Source: a virus. Taken from it: DNA of 29,080 bases. Location: positions 1 through 29,080 of IMG/VR virus record IMGVR_UViG_3300042987_000987; one strand, given 5' to 3'. The position numbers were made by a program, and so were the translations under genes. This document shows positions 2,756 through 29,078 of this stretch, in pieces. Each line of letters begins with the position of its first letter. Position 1 is the first letter of the stretch. The notes under the pieces were generated by a model. That model was not told the DNA's origin. It saw nothing but the letters and a program-made list of their open reading frames with translations, and did not search any database.

Positions 2756-5260
2756 GTGGAAGTAGACCTTTATGCTGTGCCGAGCGACCAGGAGCTCAAC
2801 GACGTCGTTAGGACGCATGACTGCTCCGAGTTCGAGCCGCATCCCAGCGACGCCGTCTACGCCCACGTTCTAGACGACCTGATCGAAGAAGACCTGACTG
2901 AAGCTGGAGCGCGCTCGCTAACGACGCGTCGCAAGCTGGCTACTCGCATGCGATCGATGTCGTCTAAGCTGACGAGGATGCGCGCCGCCAAGCGGATGCG
3001 CCTCGCTCCCGCAGAACGGCTTCAGTACAGAGCGCGCAAGGCCGCCATCATGCTTCTCCGAGCCCGCCTCGCCGGAAAGCGTGGTCAAGACTACTCGAAG
3101 CTGTCGCCGAGCGATCGCGTAATGATCGACAAGCAGGTCGTTAATCGCTACGGAAAGAACCTAGAGAAGATGGTTAAGGCCATCGCGACTCGACTACTTC
3201 CGATGGTGCGCCGCAAAGAGGCAGACCGCCTGCGAGTCGCTAAGATGCAAGAAGGTCATCAGTACTACACCGGTCTATCGACGAGCACAAAGTCTGCACG
3301 AGCGGCGCAGTTCGCGAAGCAGACCAAGATGTCTGACAGCGACCCATCGGCCTACAAGAAGGCTCCAGGAGACGACAAGGAGACACGCATGAGCAAGCAC
3401 ACTAAGAAGTATCGCGATATGTTCGAGGCGCGTAAGTCTGCTCACGGAGCCGGCGACGCCGACGAGCCGAGCGACAACATCGTCTACCAGATGCGTAAGG
3501 TCATCAACCTCCGCGGTAAGCACCCAGTCAAGTTCGCCGACGGCTCGACGATGCAGCTGCATCCCGACCATGCGCACCACGTCATTAGAATGTACCACGC
3601 CCAGCAGCGTCCTCTCGACAAGCACAAGTTCGTTCGACACATGGGAGCGAGCTCGACCAACTTTAAGAAGGCTATCGGTCTCAGCGATCAGTTCGCGATC
3701 GACAAGGACCTTCCGGTGTCTTCTGACCCGCGCGAGTTTCCAGTCCGCTCGTCCTACATCACGAGCAGCAAGAAGGCCGTGAGAGAGGAGATCGGTTACA
3801 GAGTCACCGGTCGCGCGACGGCGTTCGTCCCACAGAACGCTCCTGAGTATCCTCCGACGAGCCACGCCGTTCCGAGCGACTTACCGGAGAAGAAGGGAGA
3901 CAAGAAGACGCTCATCGACCGCCTCGTCTCTAAGGCCCGCTCAGCTAAGAACGAGGACGTGAGCGACGTCCTGCACCGAGAGCGCGACGCTCTCAAGCAG
4001 AAGCAGCACCGAGAGCGCGACGCGCTGGCGCGCCGCCACGCCGCTAAGGTCAAGGTCGCGGCGATGCACAAGAAGACTATCGCGAAGTCGCGATCGAGCT
4101 CGTACCTAAAGAGCGAGGAGTACGACTACGCGATCAGTGAGTCCGCTCTCGCCGGTCTACAGAAGAAGGCTGAGAAGTCAGGCATCCCCCTCGGTGTTCT
4201 TCGCAAGGTGTACAATCGCGGAATGGCCGCGTGGAAGACGGGACACCGTCCGGGCGCTAACCAGCAGCAGTGGGCGTACGCTCGTGTCAACAGCTTCATC
4301 ACTAAGGGTAAGGGAACATGGGGCGGCGCCGACAAGGACCTAGCCGCTAGCGTGCGCAAGGAGGATGTTGAGGTGAGCGAGGCTACCATATCTCGCCGCC
4401 AGCACACCGTCGGTAAGCCGGTGTCTTCCTACAAGCCGATTCAGTCGACCTCGAGCGGCGTAATGAACTTCAAGGGCGTCGACTGGAAAGCCGCCTCCGA
4501 CTCCGTTAGAGACGAGATTCGTAAGGAGAAGGAGGCTAAGCTAGCCAAGCTTAAGAAGCCTGTATCTGAGTCGGCTGGTGTCGGAAGCGACGAGCTTCGC
4601 GACGAGTACGCATCGGCAACTCCCGGACAGAACCCAGGCGGAATCGACGTGTCGCACGTGTCTGCGCCGAAGCCGTGGGAGGTCGACGAACAGACGCACA
4701 AGTCACGCGACATCGGTAAGTCCGTCCGCACGTGGGAGGACGTTCGCAAGGTACTGAGCGGAAAGAAGAACGTCAATGAGTCTTTCGTCGCGGGTATCAG
4801 CGACGCACCGTTCGCTAGGGAGGTCGGCTTCACCATCGGTGGACAGACATTCAAGCATCACGACTCAGTGGTCGTCGCCGAGGCTGATAGATCTGAGAAG
4901 ACGGACGATGACGACTACGATCACGACGGGTGCAAGGACTGCGACTGCGTCGAGGAGGGACTCGAGAATTACAGAGACGTCAGCGAGACGACCATCACTC
5001 ACAAGGGCCACGCCGTGAAGCTCGGCGCAGTGACTAAGTCTGACCGCCCCGACAAGAAGCGAATGGTGCACGTTCGCAACGACAAGGGCAACGTCGTGCG
5101 AGTTCACTTCGGCGATCCTAACCTCGAGATCAAGCGCGACAACCCTGAGCGCCGCAGAAACTTTCGCGCTCGTCACGGCTGCGACAATCCTGGTCCGAGG
5201 TGGAAGGCTAAGTACTGGTCTTGTCGGTACTGGTCTAAGAAGCCCGTCAGTAAGATGTAG
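2756..5260 (+). CDS. Large modular late virion protein
   Basis: This 834-residue polar protein reads as a string of modules known from T4-like phages. Residues 1-50 are acidic and end LTEAG. Residues 55-165 are a basic helical module (ARKAAIMLLRARLAGKRG...DYSKLSPSDR). Residues 243-310 hold a KFADGSTMQLHPDHAHHVIRM module. Residues 405-440 are coiled coil with two HRERDAL repeats. Residues 470-535 resemble the DUF5824-like block (VYNRGMAAWKTGHRPG, QQQWAYARVNSF). An acidic Asp/Cys-rich linker (717-733) precedes the C-terminal block (745-834; VHFGDPNLEIKRDNPERRR, then CDNPGPRWKAKYWSCRYW). In relatives, as I recall, some blocks occur as separate proteins. GTG 2756 has GGAGG five bases upstream. 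Late promoter and neighbours suggest a prohead-core or capsid-interior role, but the exact part is unknown. Confidence 0.7.
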   Translation: MEVDLYAVPSDQELNDVVRTHDCSEFEPHPSDAVYAHVLDDLIEEDLTEAGARSLTTRRKLATRMRSMSSKLTRMRAAKRMRLAPAERLQYRARKAAIMLLRARLAGKRGQDYSKLSPSDRVMIDKQVVNRYGKNLEKMVKAIATRLLPMVRRKEADRLRVAKMQEGHQYYTGLSTSTKSARAAQFAKQTKMSDSDPSAYKKAPGDDKETRMSKHTKKYRDMFEARKSAHGAGDADEPSDNIVYQMRKVINLRGKHPVKFADGSTMQLHPDHAHHVIRMYHAQQRPLDKHKFVRHMGASSTNFKKAIGLSDQFAIDKDLPVSSDPREFPVRSSYITSSKKAVREEIGYRVTGRATAFVPQNAPEYPPTSHAVPSDLPEKKGDKKTLIDRLVSKARSAKNEDVSDVLHRERDALKQKQHRERDALARRHAAKVKVAAMHKKTIAKSRSSSYLKSEEYDYAISESALAGLQKKAEKSGIPLGVLRKVYNRGMAAWKTGHRPGANQQQWAYARVNSFITKGKGTWGGADKDLAASVRKEDVEVSEATISRRQHTVGKPVSSYKPIQSTSSGVMNFKGVDWKAASDSVRDEIRKEKEAKLAKLKKPVSESAGVGSDELRDEYASATPGQNPGGIDVSHVSAPKPWEVDEQTHKSRDIGKSVRTWEDVRKVLSGKKNVNESFVAGISDAPFAREVGFTIGGQTFKHHDSVVVAEADRSEKTDDDDYDHDGCKDCDCVEEGLENYRDVSETTITHKGHAVKLGAVTKSDRPDKKRMVHVRNDKGNVVRVHFGDPNLEIKRDNPERRRNFRARHGCDNPGPRWKAKYWSCRYWSKKPVSKM
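3973..4023 (+). repeat. Short direct repeat encoding a coiled-coil repeat
   Basis: The 18-bp string GCACCGAGAGCGCGACGC occurs perfectly at 3973-3990 and 4006-4023, 33 bp apart (11 codons). It encodes two HRERDAL units in the coiled-coil part of the 834-residue virion protein, giving an 11-residue period. The identical DNA suggests a recent small duplication. Confidence 0.7.
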
Positions 5261-7373: not shown

Positions 7374-8141
7374 ATGCCACTTTGGAACTTTCTACACGAG
7401 AAGAACAACCCATCTTCCGGCGCGAACAGCGTAGCCGGTAAGATCGCGGGTTACCAGCCGTTCGGTGGAATGACCGACGGCAAGGAGGCTTGGAAGCGCA
7501 ACGTCGTAGCGACGAAGCTCGGCTGGGTCCGCCGCACTAACAAGACTAAGGACAGCACCACCAGTCAGCACGATGAGATTTTGGTCGCGGGCAACCCGGC
7601 CATCACCAGCGGTACCGACGACGGCTACGCGAACGTCGCGCACCTGGCGTTCCCCGACGTCGCGCAGATCTACTTCAGCTCGAACAGCACGGGCGGGACT
7701 GCGCTGCAGGCGAACAGCTACGCGAACATCTACGTCGTGTTCAACGAGCCGGTTCGCAGCAAGGGCGGACGCGTCCTCTACCAGTTCAAGGTGGCCAACA
7801 CCGTCTCTGGCAACGCGACGGTCGCGTACTTCTCAAACAACGCCGTCGTCGCTGGATACAAGCAGGGCGGCAGTTCGATCATCAACGCAAACAACACCCT
7901 CGTGTTCCGCGTGTACCTGCCGTTCGTCAGCGGCAAGACGTCGACCTACAAGGTCAACGCAAACACGATCCAGGCTAACGGCGTCACTGCCGCCGGTGTG
8001 GTCAAGGGCGGCGTGACGTCGAACCTCGTCAGCGAGAACATCACGACTGCCGGCTCCGAGTCCGCGAACCTGGTGATCACAGGTGCGGTGTCGAACAGTG
8101 CCGGAACGTTCACGGTGCGCTCCGCGAAGTCCGGCGGATAA
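7374..8141 (+). CDS. Late structural protein (255 aa)
   Basis: The N-terminus (MPLWNFLHEKNNP) and an early basic segment (KRNVVATKLGWVRR) resemble virion proteins of T4-like cyanophages. The rest is a Ser/Thr/Asn/Gly/Val-rich, beta-type sequence with almost no cysteine, ending TFTVRSAKSGG. It has its own late promoter and one of the best ribosome sites in the window, so it is probably made in quantity; a head-decoration or tail-tube-associated role is possible. No enzymatic motif is present. Confidence 0.6.
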   Translation: MPLWNFLHEKNNPSSGANSVAGKIAGYQPFGGMTDGKEAWKRNVVATKLGWVRRTNKTKDSTTSQHDEILVAGNPAITSGTDDGYANVAHLAFPDVAQIYFSSNSTGGTALQANSYANIYVVFNEPVRSKGGRVLYQFKVANTVSGNATVAYFSNNAVVAGYKQGGSSIINANNTLVFRVYLPFVSGKTSTYKVNANTIQANGVTAAGVVKGGVTSNLVSENITTAGSESANLVITGAVSNSAGTFTVRSAKSGG

Positions 8142-27774: not shown

Positions 27775-27812
27775 AAGGCCGAGACCAAGTTGGGATCGGC
27801 CTTAGTTTTTTT
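27775..27812 (+). terminator. Rho-independent terminator
   Basis: AAGGCCGA (27775-27782) pairs perfectly with TCGGCCTT (27796-27803) across a 13-nt loop, followed by AG and seven Ts (27806-27812). It ends the long upstream operon, and a strong promoter begins four bases later. The 130 bases between the lipoprotein gene and this stem are AT-rich, with only tiny open frames (25 codons at 27658, 18 at 27684) that I do not call. Confidence 0.8.
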
Positions 27813-27816
27813 GTCG

Positions 27817-27845
27817 TTGACAACGGTCTCGAACCGTTGTATAAA
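27817..27845 (+). promoter_or_regulatory. Sigma70-like promoter P1 with spacer dyad
   Basis: TTGACA at 27817-27822, 17-bp spacer, TATAAA at 27840-27845. The spacer is filled by a perfect 7-bp inverted repeat: CAACGGT (27821-27827) and ACCGTTG (27833-27839) with a 5-bp centre. A dyad between -35 and -10 is a classic repressor-operator position. Start expected near 27852. Confidence 0.75.
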
Positions 27846-27876
27846 TGACATAACGGTCGGTGAGGAAGCCGGTCGA

Positions 27877-27914
27877 AGTCTGGTGCAAAAAGTCGTTGAC
27901 ATACGTACCAGACT
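27877..27914 (+). promoter_or_regulatory. Inverted repeat around the P2 -35 box
   Basis: AGTCTGGT (27877-27884) is repeated inverted as ACCAGACT (27907-27914), extendable to ten pairs with one G-T and one C-G pair inside. The arms flank the -35 box of P2. It may be an operator, or a stem in the RNA made from P1 that forms while P2 is bypassed. Confidence 0.55.
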
Positions 27915-27924
27915 GTCGTATAAA
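27896..27924 (+). promoter_or_regulatory. Sigma70-like promoter P2
   Basis: TTGACA at 27896-27901, 17-bp spacer, TATAAA at 27919-27924. Start expected near 27931, one base before a perfect 9-bp hairpin. P1 and P2 share GTCGTTGACA and TATAAATG, suggesting duplication of one promoter cassette 79 bp apart. Confidence 0.75.
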
Positions 27925-27930
27925 TGGTTA

Positions 27931-28195
27931 TGACTCTGGAAATGAAGTCCAGAGTCGACTCCAGTAGGGAGTCACCGGTATCGCGGAACGAGGCTGCGAG
28001 CCGCCGGTCTACAAGGGTTCGAACGGGCGGGACTGAGGATGAAAGCTCTGGCGGTAACGGAGCGAGTAAAATCCAGGAGTGGCATGGCTTTGACCGTTGA
28101 GCCCTATCAACCGTCCGTACTGCATCACGAAAGCCACGCGGGAAGCGCCAGTGCAGTGGTACCCGCACCAATTTTGCTCGAGTGAGCATCGCAGT
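27931..28195 (+). ncRNA. Candidate structured non-coding RNA
   Basis: No credible coding frame lies in this 265-base stretch, yet it follows a strong promoter and is dense in perfect inverted repeats. Helices: 27932-27940/27948-27956 (9 bp, 7-nt loop), 27957-27962/27968-27973 (6 bp), 27974-27978/28004-28008 enclosing GGCT-GCG-AGCC, CTCTG/CGGAG near 28047-28062, a GACCGTTGA/TCAACCGTC stem with one C-C mismatch near 28093-28116, an ACTGCA/TGCAGT long-range helix, GCGGG/CCCGC near 28139-28166, and TGCTC/GAGCA at 28175-28188. Two copies of CCA-like ends (28168-28170, 28265-28267) and a GGTTCGAAC at 28017 recall tRNA elements, but no second tRNA folds. It may be a leader processed with tRNA-Met or an independent RNA. 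Confidence 0.45.
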
Positions 28196-28267
28196 TGCGG
28201 AGAGGACCGGGTCCCATCTTGGCTCATACCCAGGACCGCGCACGTTCGACTCGTGCCTCCGCAACCA
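28196..28267 (+). tRNA. tRNA-Met (CAT), with shortened D arm
   Basis: Acceptor TGCGGAG/CTCCGCA (28196-28202 with 28257-28263), discriminator A and encoded CCA. Anticodon arm CTTGG-CTCATAC-CCAGG with CAT at 28225-28227. T arm GCACG-TTCGACT-CGTGC. Only 15 bases separate acceptor and anticodon stems, folding as GGAC-CGG-GTCC, so the D loop is three bases yet still holds a GG. The initiator signature of three G-C pairs in the anticodon stem is absent, so it is an elongator Met or a lysidine-modified Ile tRNA. 72 nt in total. Confidence 0.65.
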
Positions 28268-28292: not shown

Positions 28293-28922
28293 ATGCTGTC
28301 GTTCAGGTCGTTCATCGCTGAGGAGAGAGATCCGAAGTCTGACACGGCACACTTCACCGACATGGACGACACTCTCTTTCACTACGACAACGACAAGCTG
28401 CGCATTCACGTCAGAGACCAGCACGGCAACCACGTGCAGAGTCTGACGAACTCGCAGTTCAACACGCACAAGCTGCAGCCCGGACACCACTACGACTTCA
28501 GTGAGTTCCGGTCGGCTGAGAAGTTTGGTAAGACCGCTAAGCCGATTCGCAAGATGCTGTCGAAGATCAAGGCGATCCACAAGAAGAACAAGAACGTAGA
28601 GATCGTCACGGCTCGGTCTGACTTCGACGACAAAGATAAGTTCGCCCACCACATGAAGCGGTTTGGGTTAGACATTCACAAGATGCACGTTAGGCGAGCC
28701 GGCAACTTAGGTCTGCCTCCCGCCGAGGGTAAGAAGCGCATCATGTCCGATCAGATACGTAAGAACGGATACAAGAAGGCGCACCTCTACGACGACTCGA
28801 AGGCAAATCTCAACGCCTTCCTGTCGCTGAAGAAGGATCACCCAGACGTAGAGTTTCACGCCCACCACGTCGACCACGACGCTAAGACTGGCGTGACTAA
28901 GATCACTACGACAAAAGCTTAA
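28293..28922 (+). CDS. Late HAD-superfamily phosphatase with capsid-targeting-like N-terminus
   Basis: This 209-residue protein has HAD motif I DMDDT (D23, D25, T27), motif II in EIVTARSDF, a Lys-rich motif III region (EGKKRIMSDQIRKNG) and motif IV in AHLYDDS. It is likely to hydrolyse a phosphate monoester; T4 relatives in this superfamily include the 3'-phosphatase of polynucleotide kinase. The first residues, MLSFRSFIAEE, mirror the T4 capsid-targeting sequence MKTYQEFIAE and contain the [L/I]xE protease rule (IAE). The gene has a late promoter, so the enzyme may be packaged in the head. The frame extends upstream through tRNA-Met, but ATG 28293 with its ribosome site is the real start. 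Its stop is one base before tRNA-Glu. Confidence 0.75.
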   Translation: MLSFRSFIAEERDPKSDTAHFTDMDDTLFHYDNDKLRIHVRDQHGNHVQSLTNSQFNTHKLQPGHHYDFSEFRSAEKFGKTAKPIRKMLSKIKAIHKKNKNVEIVTARSDFDDKDKFAHHMKRFGLDIHKMHVRRAGNLGLPPAEGKKRIMSDQIRKNGYKKAHLYDDSKANLNAFLSLKKDHPDVEFHAHHVDHDAKTGVTKITTTKA

Positions 28923-28923
28923 C

Positions 28924-28999
28924 GCACCGTTCGTCTAAAGTTAAGGACACCGGCCTTTCAAGTCGGGAAGTGCCGGTTAGAGTCCGGCACGGTGCACCA
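28924..28999 (+). tRNA. tRNA-Glu (TTC)
   Basis: Acceptor GCACCGT/ACGGTGC, D stem GTCT/GGAC, anticodon arm CCGGC-CTTTCAA-GTCGG with TTC at 28957-28959, variable loop GAAGT, T arm GCCGG-TTAGAGT-CCGGC, discriminator A and encoded CCA. 76 nt. All stems pair. T-loop position 56 is A (28979) instead of the near-invariant C, and D-loop position 19 is T (28941) instead of G, a compensating swap. It begins one base after the HAD stop codon. Confidence 0.93.
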
Positions 29000-29003
29000 T
29001 CAT

Positions 29004-29078
29004 GGCCGATTAGCTCAGCGGAAGAGCGCCTGCTTTACACGCAGGATGTCGGCGGTTCGAATCCGTCATCGGCTACCA
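29004..29078 (+). tRNA. tRNA-Val (TAC)
   Basis: Acceptor GGCCGAT/ATCGGCT (first pair G-T), D arm GCTC-AGCGGAA-GAGC, anticodon arm CCTGC-TTTACAC-GCAGG with TAC at 29036-29038, T arm GGCGG-TTCGAAT-CCGTC, discriminator A and encoded CCA. 75 nt, canonical D and T loops. Four bases separate it from tRNA-Glu, so both are likely cut from one transcript. Confidence 0.95.

Follow-up and report, generated by a model that had tools for sequence, protein, structure and literature searches.

The tRNA cluster of phage T4 carries the small stable RNAs C and D, whose function is unknown. On their transcripts, rRNA operons and lambdoid phages counter Rho with leader elements. GOLLD and ROOL are structured RNAs of phages and prophages that are encoded near tRNA islands; they span hundreds of nucleotides, form nanocages and have no known function (PMC12286853). 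Theta ribozymes, which are HDV-like ribozymes of gut phages, are compact, pseudoknotted and tied to phage tRNA genes, and they cut at the 3' end of the tRNA (PMC10879173). The put RNA of phage HK022, which is about 73 nt long and V-shaped with two stem-loops, achieves antitermination as RNA alone (PMC9378689).

Here, we describe an RNA element found in a 29,080-base IMG/VR virus record (the window, meaning the whole stretch of DNA analysed) that carries a tRNA array at its right end. Like GOLLD and ROOL, this element is encoded near phage tRNA islands. However, its conserved core is only about 103 nt long with variable flanks, it lies upstream of the tRNAs, its pseudoknot fold is unrelated and neither model matches it. 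Size and model therefore rule out that the element is GOLLD or ROOL. The element differs also from HDV-like ribozymes. In these ribozymes, the strands follow the order P1a-P2a-[P3 hairpin]-P1b-P2b, which makes a nested double pseudoknot (P1-P2-P3-P3'-P1'-P2'), whereas the order is P1a-[P2 hairpin]-P3a-P1b-P3b (P1-P2-P2'-P3-P1'-P3') in the element. Furthermore, the element is separated from the 5' end of the next tRNA by 38 to about 1,850 nt, whereas theta ribozymes cut at a tRNA 3' end. Strand order and position thus rule out an HDV-like theta ribozyme. A self-cleaving ribozyme of a new class could free the tRNA array in the same way as theta ribozymes free tRNA 3' ends; the compact pseudoknotted fold, the highly conserved unpaired nucleotides and the use of ribozymes by phage tRNA arrays (PMC10879173) would all suit such an activity. 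However, besides the unlike strand order, the distances to the tRNA imply that no cut would occur at its end and no conserved sequence outside the fold could serve as cut site, so that we consider such a ribozyme very improbable. The HK022 put RNA and the rrn leaders, short folded leaders acting in cis on RNA polymerase, are proposed here as functional analogues; put has no sequence or structural relation to the element, which is pseudoknotted according to covariation. Riboswitches and T-box leaders have a terminator or another expression platform between the aptamer and the gene. A terminator-like hairpin was found within about 310 nt downstream of the element at only 2 of 84 loci (L160 and L071), and a riboswitch with a terminator platform was rejected. 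The features of the locus are listed in Table 1.

Table 1. Coordinates in the window of the RNA element, its flanks and the neighbouring tRNA genes
Feature	Position	Strand	Basis
Intrinsic terminator of the upstream unit (AAGGCCGA...TCGGCCTT + T7)	27775..27812	+	read directly
P1 promoter, TTGACA-17-TATAAA	27817..27845	+	exact match; TTGACA-17-TATAAA also at the corresponding site of L003, the closest relative
P2 promoter, TTGACA-17-TATAAA	27896..27924	+	exact match; not conserved in L003
Variable 5' leader with two hairpins (27932-27956, 27957-27973)	27932..27973	+	sequence; not conserved
Core conserved across the new RNA family (pseudoknot domain and P4/P5 arm)	27974..28076	+	covariance model R1, 91 bits; about 137 IMG/VR contigs
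Helix P1, 5' strand ACCGG, pairing with CCGGU 28004-28008 (pseudoknot)	27974..27978	+	type-specific pairing test in relatives
P2 hairpin GCGG/CUGC, 7-nt loop AACGAGG (27987-27993)	27983..27997	+	native pairing in 57/57 distinct sequences
Nucleotide 7 of the P2 loop, in a tertiary Watson-Crick pair with C28024	27993..27993	+	G-C 79, A-U 15, C-G 2, mismatch 1 across 97 distinct sequences
Helix P3, GAGCC (27998-28002) / GGUUC (28016-28020)	27998..28020	+	full pairing in 46/57
Conserved strand AACGGGCGG	28022..28030	+	nearly invariant in alignments A2 and A3
Helix P4, CUG/CAG (28033-28035/28074-28076)	28033..28076	+	pair counts
Helix P5, GCUCUG/CGGAGC, loop GCGGUAA (28051-28057)	28045..28063	+	91.9% of cells paired
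Variable 3' region with hairpins, before the first tRNA	28077..28195	+	long hairpins follow the core in relatives
tRNA-Met(CAT), first tRNA of the array	28196..28267	+	ARAGORN
tRNA-Glu, tRNA-Val	28924..29078	+	ARAGORN

The terminator of the upstream unit ends 4 nt before the P1 promoter (TTGACA 27817-27822, 17-nt spacer, TATAAA 27840-27845) and the P2 promoter (TTGACA 27896-27901, 17-nt spacer, TATAAA 27919-27924) is found 79 bp further on. These are the two exact TTGACA-17-TATAAA sites of the window, where 0.00 are expected from shuffles; a promoter scan requiring T at the last -10 position misses both for that reason only. Inverted repeats are read directly around the spacer of the P1 promoter (CAACGGT/ACCGTTG) and on both sides of the -35 of the P2 promoter (AGTCTGGT/ACCAGACT), and a 9-bp hairpin is formed by 27932-27940 and 27948-27956. 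All these signals had been pointed out by an earlier, sequence-only reading of this locus and are indeed present. From these signals, we infer that the element would be transcribed from the P1 and P2 promoters in the window phage. A hint of an alphaproteobacterial host comes from the B12-dependent ribonucleotide reductase of this phage, whose closest counterparts are the enzymes of Puniceispirillum, Roseobacter and rhizobial phages. The same reading had taken the dual promoters as a defining part of the locus and its palindromes as regulatory, and the relatives support neither proposal. L003, which is 82% identical over the RNA, lacks the promoter palindromes as well as the two 5' hairpins, and carries a terminator hairpin at the site of the latter; a role of the palindromes as operators was rejected since they are not conserved. 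Of the extent claimed for the structured RNA, the core is thus retained, and the 5' hairpins and promoter palindromes are not. Only 11 of 84 relatives have strict promoter-like sites close before the element (1.3/kb versus 0.74/kb for the background), so that a dedicated promoter as a feature of the family has no statistical support and was rejected. Upstream units usually end in a terminator: in 67 of 84 relatives, a terminator-like hairpin precedes the element by no more than 500 nt.

From 5' to 3', the core begins with P1a, the P2 hairpin (loop AACGAGN), P3a, P1b, an A-rich linker and P3b, the loop of P3 therefore containing the 3' strand of helix P1 and the linker. It continues with AACGGGCGG, P4, a GG bulge, two A-U pairs, a GAAA/GAGUAAA internal loop and P5 (loop GCGNNAA). 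On the comparative evidence, the interlocked P1 and P3 are an H-type pseudoknot in which the P2 hairpin is inserted. In the P4/P5 arm of the window, the conserved GG bulge is at 28037-28038 and the A-U pairs (AU/AU) are at 28039-28040/28071-28072; the internal loop GAAA/GAGUAAA is asymmetric and its GAA/AGUA pattern might correspond to a loop-E motif. Besides the form with the GCGNNAA loop, P5 takes other forms across relatives, down to a minimal CC-GAAA-GG in L155. About 30 nucleotides of the core are both invariant and unpaired.

The comparative evidence for this RNA fold is very strong. Covariation in related phages, which had been set beforehand as the test of the structure, is strongly present in helices P2, P3, P4 and P5: in alignment A3, 80.5% of cells pair versus 57.7% in shuffles and the covariation score reaches 0.549 versus 0.188 in shuffles and 0.06-0.16 in slid controls. 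When partners are swapped between sequences, pairing of P2 drops from 57/57 to at most 23 and, even with offsets re-optimised, full pairing of P3 drops from 46/57 to no more than 13. Among the 43 distinct pairs of P4 strands, 21 match at 4/4 and 15 at 3/4 positions, and both sides of P5 have changed in 5/6 pairs. For P1, the type-specific test shows that the P1b strand GCACG pairs with its own upstream strand in 7/8 sequences versus 1/76 others, CCACC in 2/2 versus 0/82, GCAGT in 1/1 versus 0/83 and CCGGT, the type of the window, in 1/1 versus 1/83. Moreover, the last nucleotide of the P2 loop and the second base of ACGGGCGG (G27993 and C28024 in the window) change together, and the A-U form of this tertiary pair is found behind at least four different P2 stems. 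Over the 265 nt from 27931 to 28195, the folding energy departs only mildly from expectation (z = -2.1), and it shows no departure for the conserved core (z = 0.0), since energy folding cannot represent a pseudoknot such as this one; energy alone would therefore have been insufficient for this finding. The minimum-energy fold even draws several helices supported by covariation wrongly, and single-sequence folding was discarded as uninformative. Hence, the description of the locus as highly structured holds for its covarying fold and only weakly for its folding energy, and the at least eight helices proposed at the outset come down to P1-P5 as those supported by covariation.

An ordinary 5' untranslated or short coding sequence, conserved by descent or for its peptide, would be another explanation of this conservation, and a frame of 48 codons can be read from the ATG at 28040 in the window. 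However, this frame is broken in relatives (by ATGAAACTCTTCTTCTAG in L131 and by P5 stems of differing lengths) and the helices keep pairing through double changes, so that we give this explanation almost no credence. No conserved reading frame was found, in agreement with the non-coding character initially attributed to the locus. A permuted tmRNA was also dropped, since the region has neither a tag frame nor an ARAGORN call.

The first relatives were reached through neighbouring genes and include L003, which is 82% identical over 217 nt, as well as L006, L007 and L008, which have a 60-nt core in common. Scans of IMG/VR returned 16 true stretches with the pattern GATGAAA-stem-GCGNNAA-stem-GAGTAAAAT, 108 stretches with AACGAG...ACGGGCGG...GGATGAAA and at least 20 new true matches with a relaxed pattern; a covariance search of whole records added one further member. 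The family comprises about 137 IMG/VR contigs of up to 383 kb, which is a lower bound, and the analysis covered 89 distinct cores obtained by the first two pattern scans. Many members come from large phages, and the family spans phages whose gene content is quite different. The covariance model R1, built from 31 sequences, gives 54-103 bits to members outside its training set and also found further members and a second copy in L155. Among the matches listed for the relaxed pattern, it separates the true ones (at least 67 bits) from 31 chance ones (below 15 bits).

The RNA has no match at the gathering threshold in Rfam 15, GOLLD and ROOL included. At relaxed E-values, the window and three divergent members only give chance-level matches, such as preQ1 on the opposite strand (E 1.3), so that no Rfam family explains the locus. 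Furthermore, blastn of the window and four variants against annotated phages (50,697 records) detected no homologue except the tRNA-Met, the matches in Salmonella phages (E 4) sitting in a primase/helicase gene. Among 85,000 bacterial and archaeal genomes, a scan by pattern returned 50 matches that were treated as chance; the best of them (L207) reaches 21 bits with the covariance model and lacks the AACGAG loop. A literature search found no description of this RNA, although an earlier one may exist. Taken as a whole, we are nearly certain that the RNA is a real structured family linked to phage tRNA arrays and, relative to Rfam 15 and the literature searched, this family is very likely undescribed, as the sequence-only reading had supposed. 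The RNA may turn out to have a function of known type.

The link with tRNA genes is found throughout the family. Same-strand tRNA genes are located downstream of 82 of the 89 distinct copies, at 38-1,403 nt (median 201), and the tRNAs within 3 kb of the element include 777 downstream and 30 upstream, with none on the opposite strand downstream. For the seven remaining copies, the fetched sequence ends within 314 nt, except for L071, in which an array of more than 20 tRNAs begins about 1.85 kb downstream, beyond a GIY-YIG endonuclease-like ORF; the case of L092 was settled by a longer fetch (L251). Among the matches listed for the relaxed scan, a downstream tRNA was found for 19 of the 20 true matches, the sequence of the 20th ending after 144 nt, and for none of the 31 chance matches below 15 bits. 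The element is thus upstream of same-strand tRNA genes in essentially every copy with enough flank. Most genomes carry one copy. In L155, each of the two arrays is headed by an element of its own; the second copy (7375-7494, also in L164) lies directly before its own tRNAs and is strongly diverged (36.7 bits), every helix having been rebuilt. The array of the window continues past its end in an identical, overlapping contig (L002) as Met, Glu, Val, Ala, Asp and Glu. Since the first downstream tRNA varies between phages, tRNA-Met is not special.

Other features of these regions were also observed. The tRNA-Met(CAT) of the window has a 3-nt D loop (GGAC-CGG-GUCC) and its anticodon at position 30; this ARAGORN match is below the Rfam tRNA cut-off and is possibly an unusual or decaying tRNA. 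In L003, GGTACCTCGCATCAGTTTTGCCCGAATGGGCATC occurs twice (4726-4762 and 5014-5053), the second copy being fused to a 5' fragment of tRNA-Met (4976-5010), and these may be signs of recombination within the tRNA array. A gene encoding a HAD-family phosphatase or polynucleotide-kinase-like protein, with 58 relatives in IMG/VR, is located inside the tRNA region of the window (28293-28919); its product might repair or trim RNA ends. ARAGORN also calls possible phage tmRNA genes (L039:6555-6917, L052:9227-9540, L255:6864-7269, L085, L089 and L135), several of which carry the tag ANDDVY...; the phages concerned are relatives by either the HAD gene or the element. Finally, the phage contig of L071 and G002 carries groEL, pstS-like and amtB-like genes.

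In 46 of 76 relatives, the core is followed by hairpins of 12 bp or more, with a density of 2.65/kb versus 0.24/kb far upstream. These hairpins of 12-25 bp (in L007, L070, L131, L085 and others) have similar stems (GTATTAAAGCAT...) and hypervariable tips, and could be RNase III sites or variable cargo. On the other side of the core, a conserved ORF of about 50 aa (pattern LTKEQLQKLIQDKFERA) is located between the terminator and the element in about half of relatives (L135, L131, L118, L120 and others) and ends about 20-30 nt before the P2 loop. It has no convincing match in Pfam or PHROG, and its product is a possible partner protein. The element therefore separates this small ORF, and more generally an upstream mRNA or terminator, from the first tRNA. 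Such a position, together with the long perfect hairpins directly after the core, would fit a leader devoted to processing or stability: the pseudoknot and the long hairpin would shield the 5' part of the tRNA precursor or guide the first cut in it by RNase III, E or P, leaving RNA polymerase untouched. However, simple protection would need neither about 30 invariant unpaired nucleotides nor a covarying tertiary pair. In addition, bacterial tRNA operons manage without such a leader, none being known to us in these operons. A role limited to processing or stability is thus rather improbable.

With the element, its fold, its linkage to tRNAs, its strand and its upstream polarity demonstrated, the RNA probably helps to make or process viral tRNAs. 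Our first choice, held tentatively and at less than even confidence, is a cis-acting leader of the tRNA-array transcript that would promote antitermination as HK022 put does. The element would be transcribed within the tRNA-array unit, near its head (from the P1 and P2 promoters in the window phage). This leader, in whose fold the P2 loop pairs with the strand AACGGGCGG, would then act in cis by way of its folded surface on the tRNA-carrying transcript, binding the elongating host RNA polymerase or the Nus machinery, and the long, largely untranslated array would be spared from Rho or pausing. Action in cis is favoured by the upstream position, the same strand, the upstream terminators and the presence of one copy per array in L155; position, strand and terminators are consistent with cis antitermination of the put type. 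A put-like function comes first because a tRNA transcript is exposed to Rho and leader elements solve this problem elsewhere. No enrichment of intrinsic terminators was found within the arrays (0.078/kb on the same strand versus 0.046/kb on the opposite one), so that antitermination would have to oppose Rho or pausing, and antitermination of built-in intrinsic terminators was rejected.

Several observations count against cis antitermination, the lack of terminator enrichment among them. Even with model filters off, no element was detected for further arrays in G003 (C1, 9-21 kb, about 20 tRNAs) and G012 (C1, 322-327 kb, about 15 tRNAs), and no further copy for the 13 tRNAs located upstream of the element in G008 (C1, 85-92 kb); the element is therefore not required for every array. 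Moreover, a near promoter is not general in relatives and, in many of them, the element comes after the small ORF and not at the start of the transcript. Since some second arrays lack the element, a trans-acting stable RNA is nearly as likely as the cis-acting leader that we prefer. The element would then be an independent small RNA gene within the tRNA transcript, freed by tRNA-processing enzymes, and would act elsewhere, with the ribosome, RNA polymerase, a nuclease or a defence protein as its target; GOLLD and ROOL are suspected of a similar role. Its single copy in most genomes, several of which have more arrays without a copy, its many invariant unpaired nucleotides, as a binding surface would have, and the long hairpin found after the core at 46 of 76 loci, where RNase III might release the RNA, all fit this alternative, and tRNA-linked RNAs of such a kind are known (PMC12286853). 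However, a trans-acting RNA could sit anywhere in an array, which is at odds with the 777 tRNAs downstream versus 30 upstream, and the second array of L155 has a copy of its own.

Although catalogues of phage tRNA arrays abound, hardly anything is known, to our knowledge, about how their long untranslated transcripts are made and controlled. The conserved and well-defined RNA described here is a mark of the upstream side of these arrays, in phages whose gene content differs considerably. Its structure is good enough for the design of clean mutants, including one swappable tertiary pair, and the RNA is therefore a handle on whether phages express their tRNA operons by an RNA-based device or hide a trans-acting RNA in them. 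Furthermore, annotators gain a model that pinpoints the heads of tRNA arrays in uncultured phages. It is somewhat unlikely that the element by itself reprograms RNA polymerase on phage tRNA arrays and represents a new structural class of cis-acting antitermination RNA, which many uncultured large phages would use for long untranslated tRNA operons.
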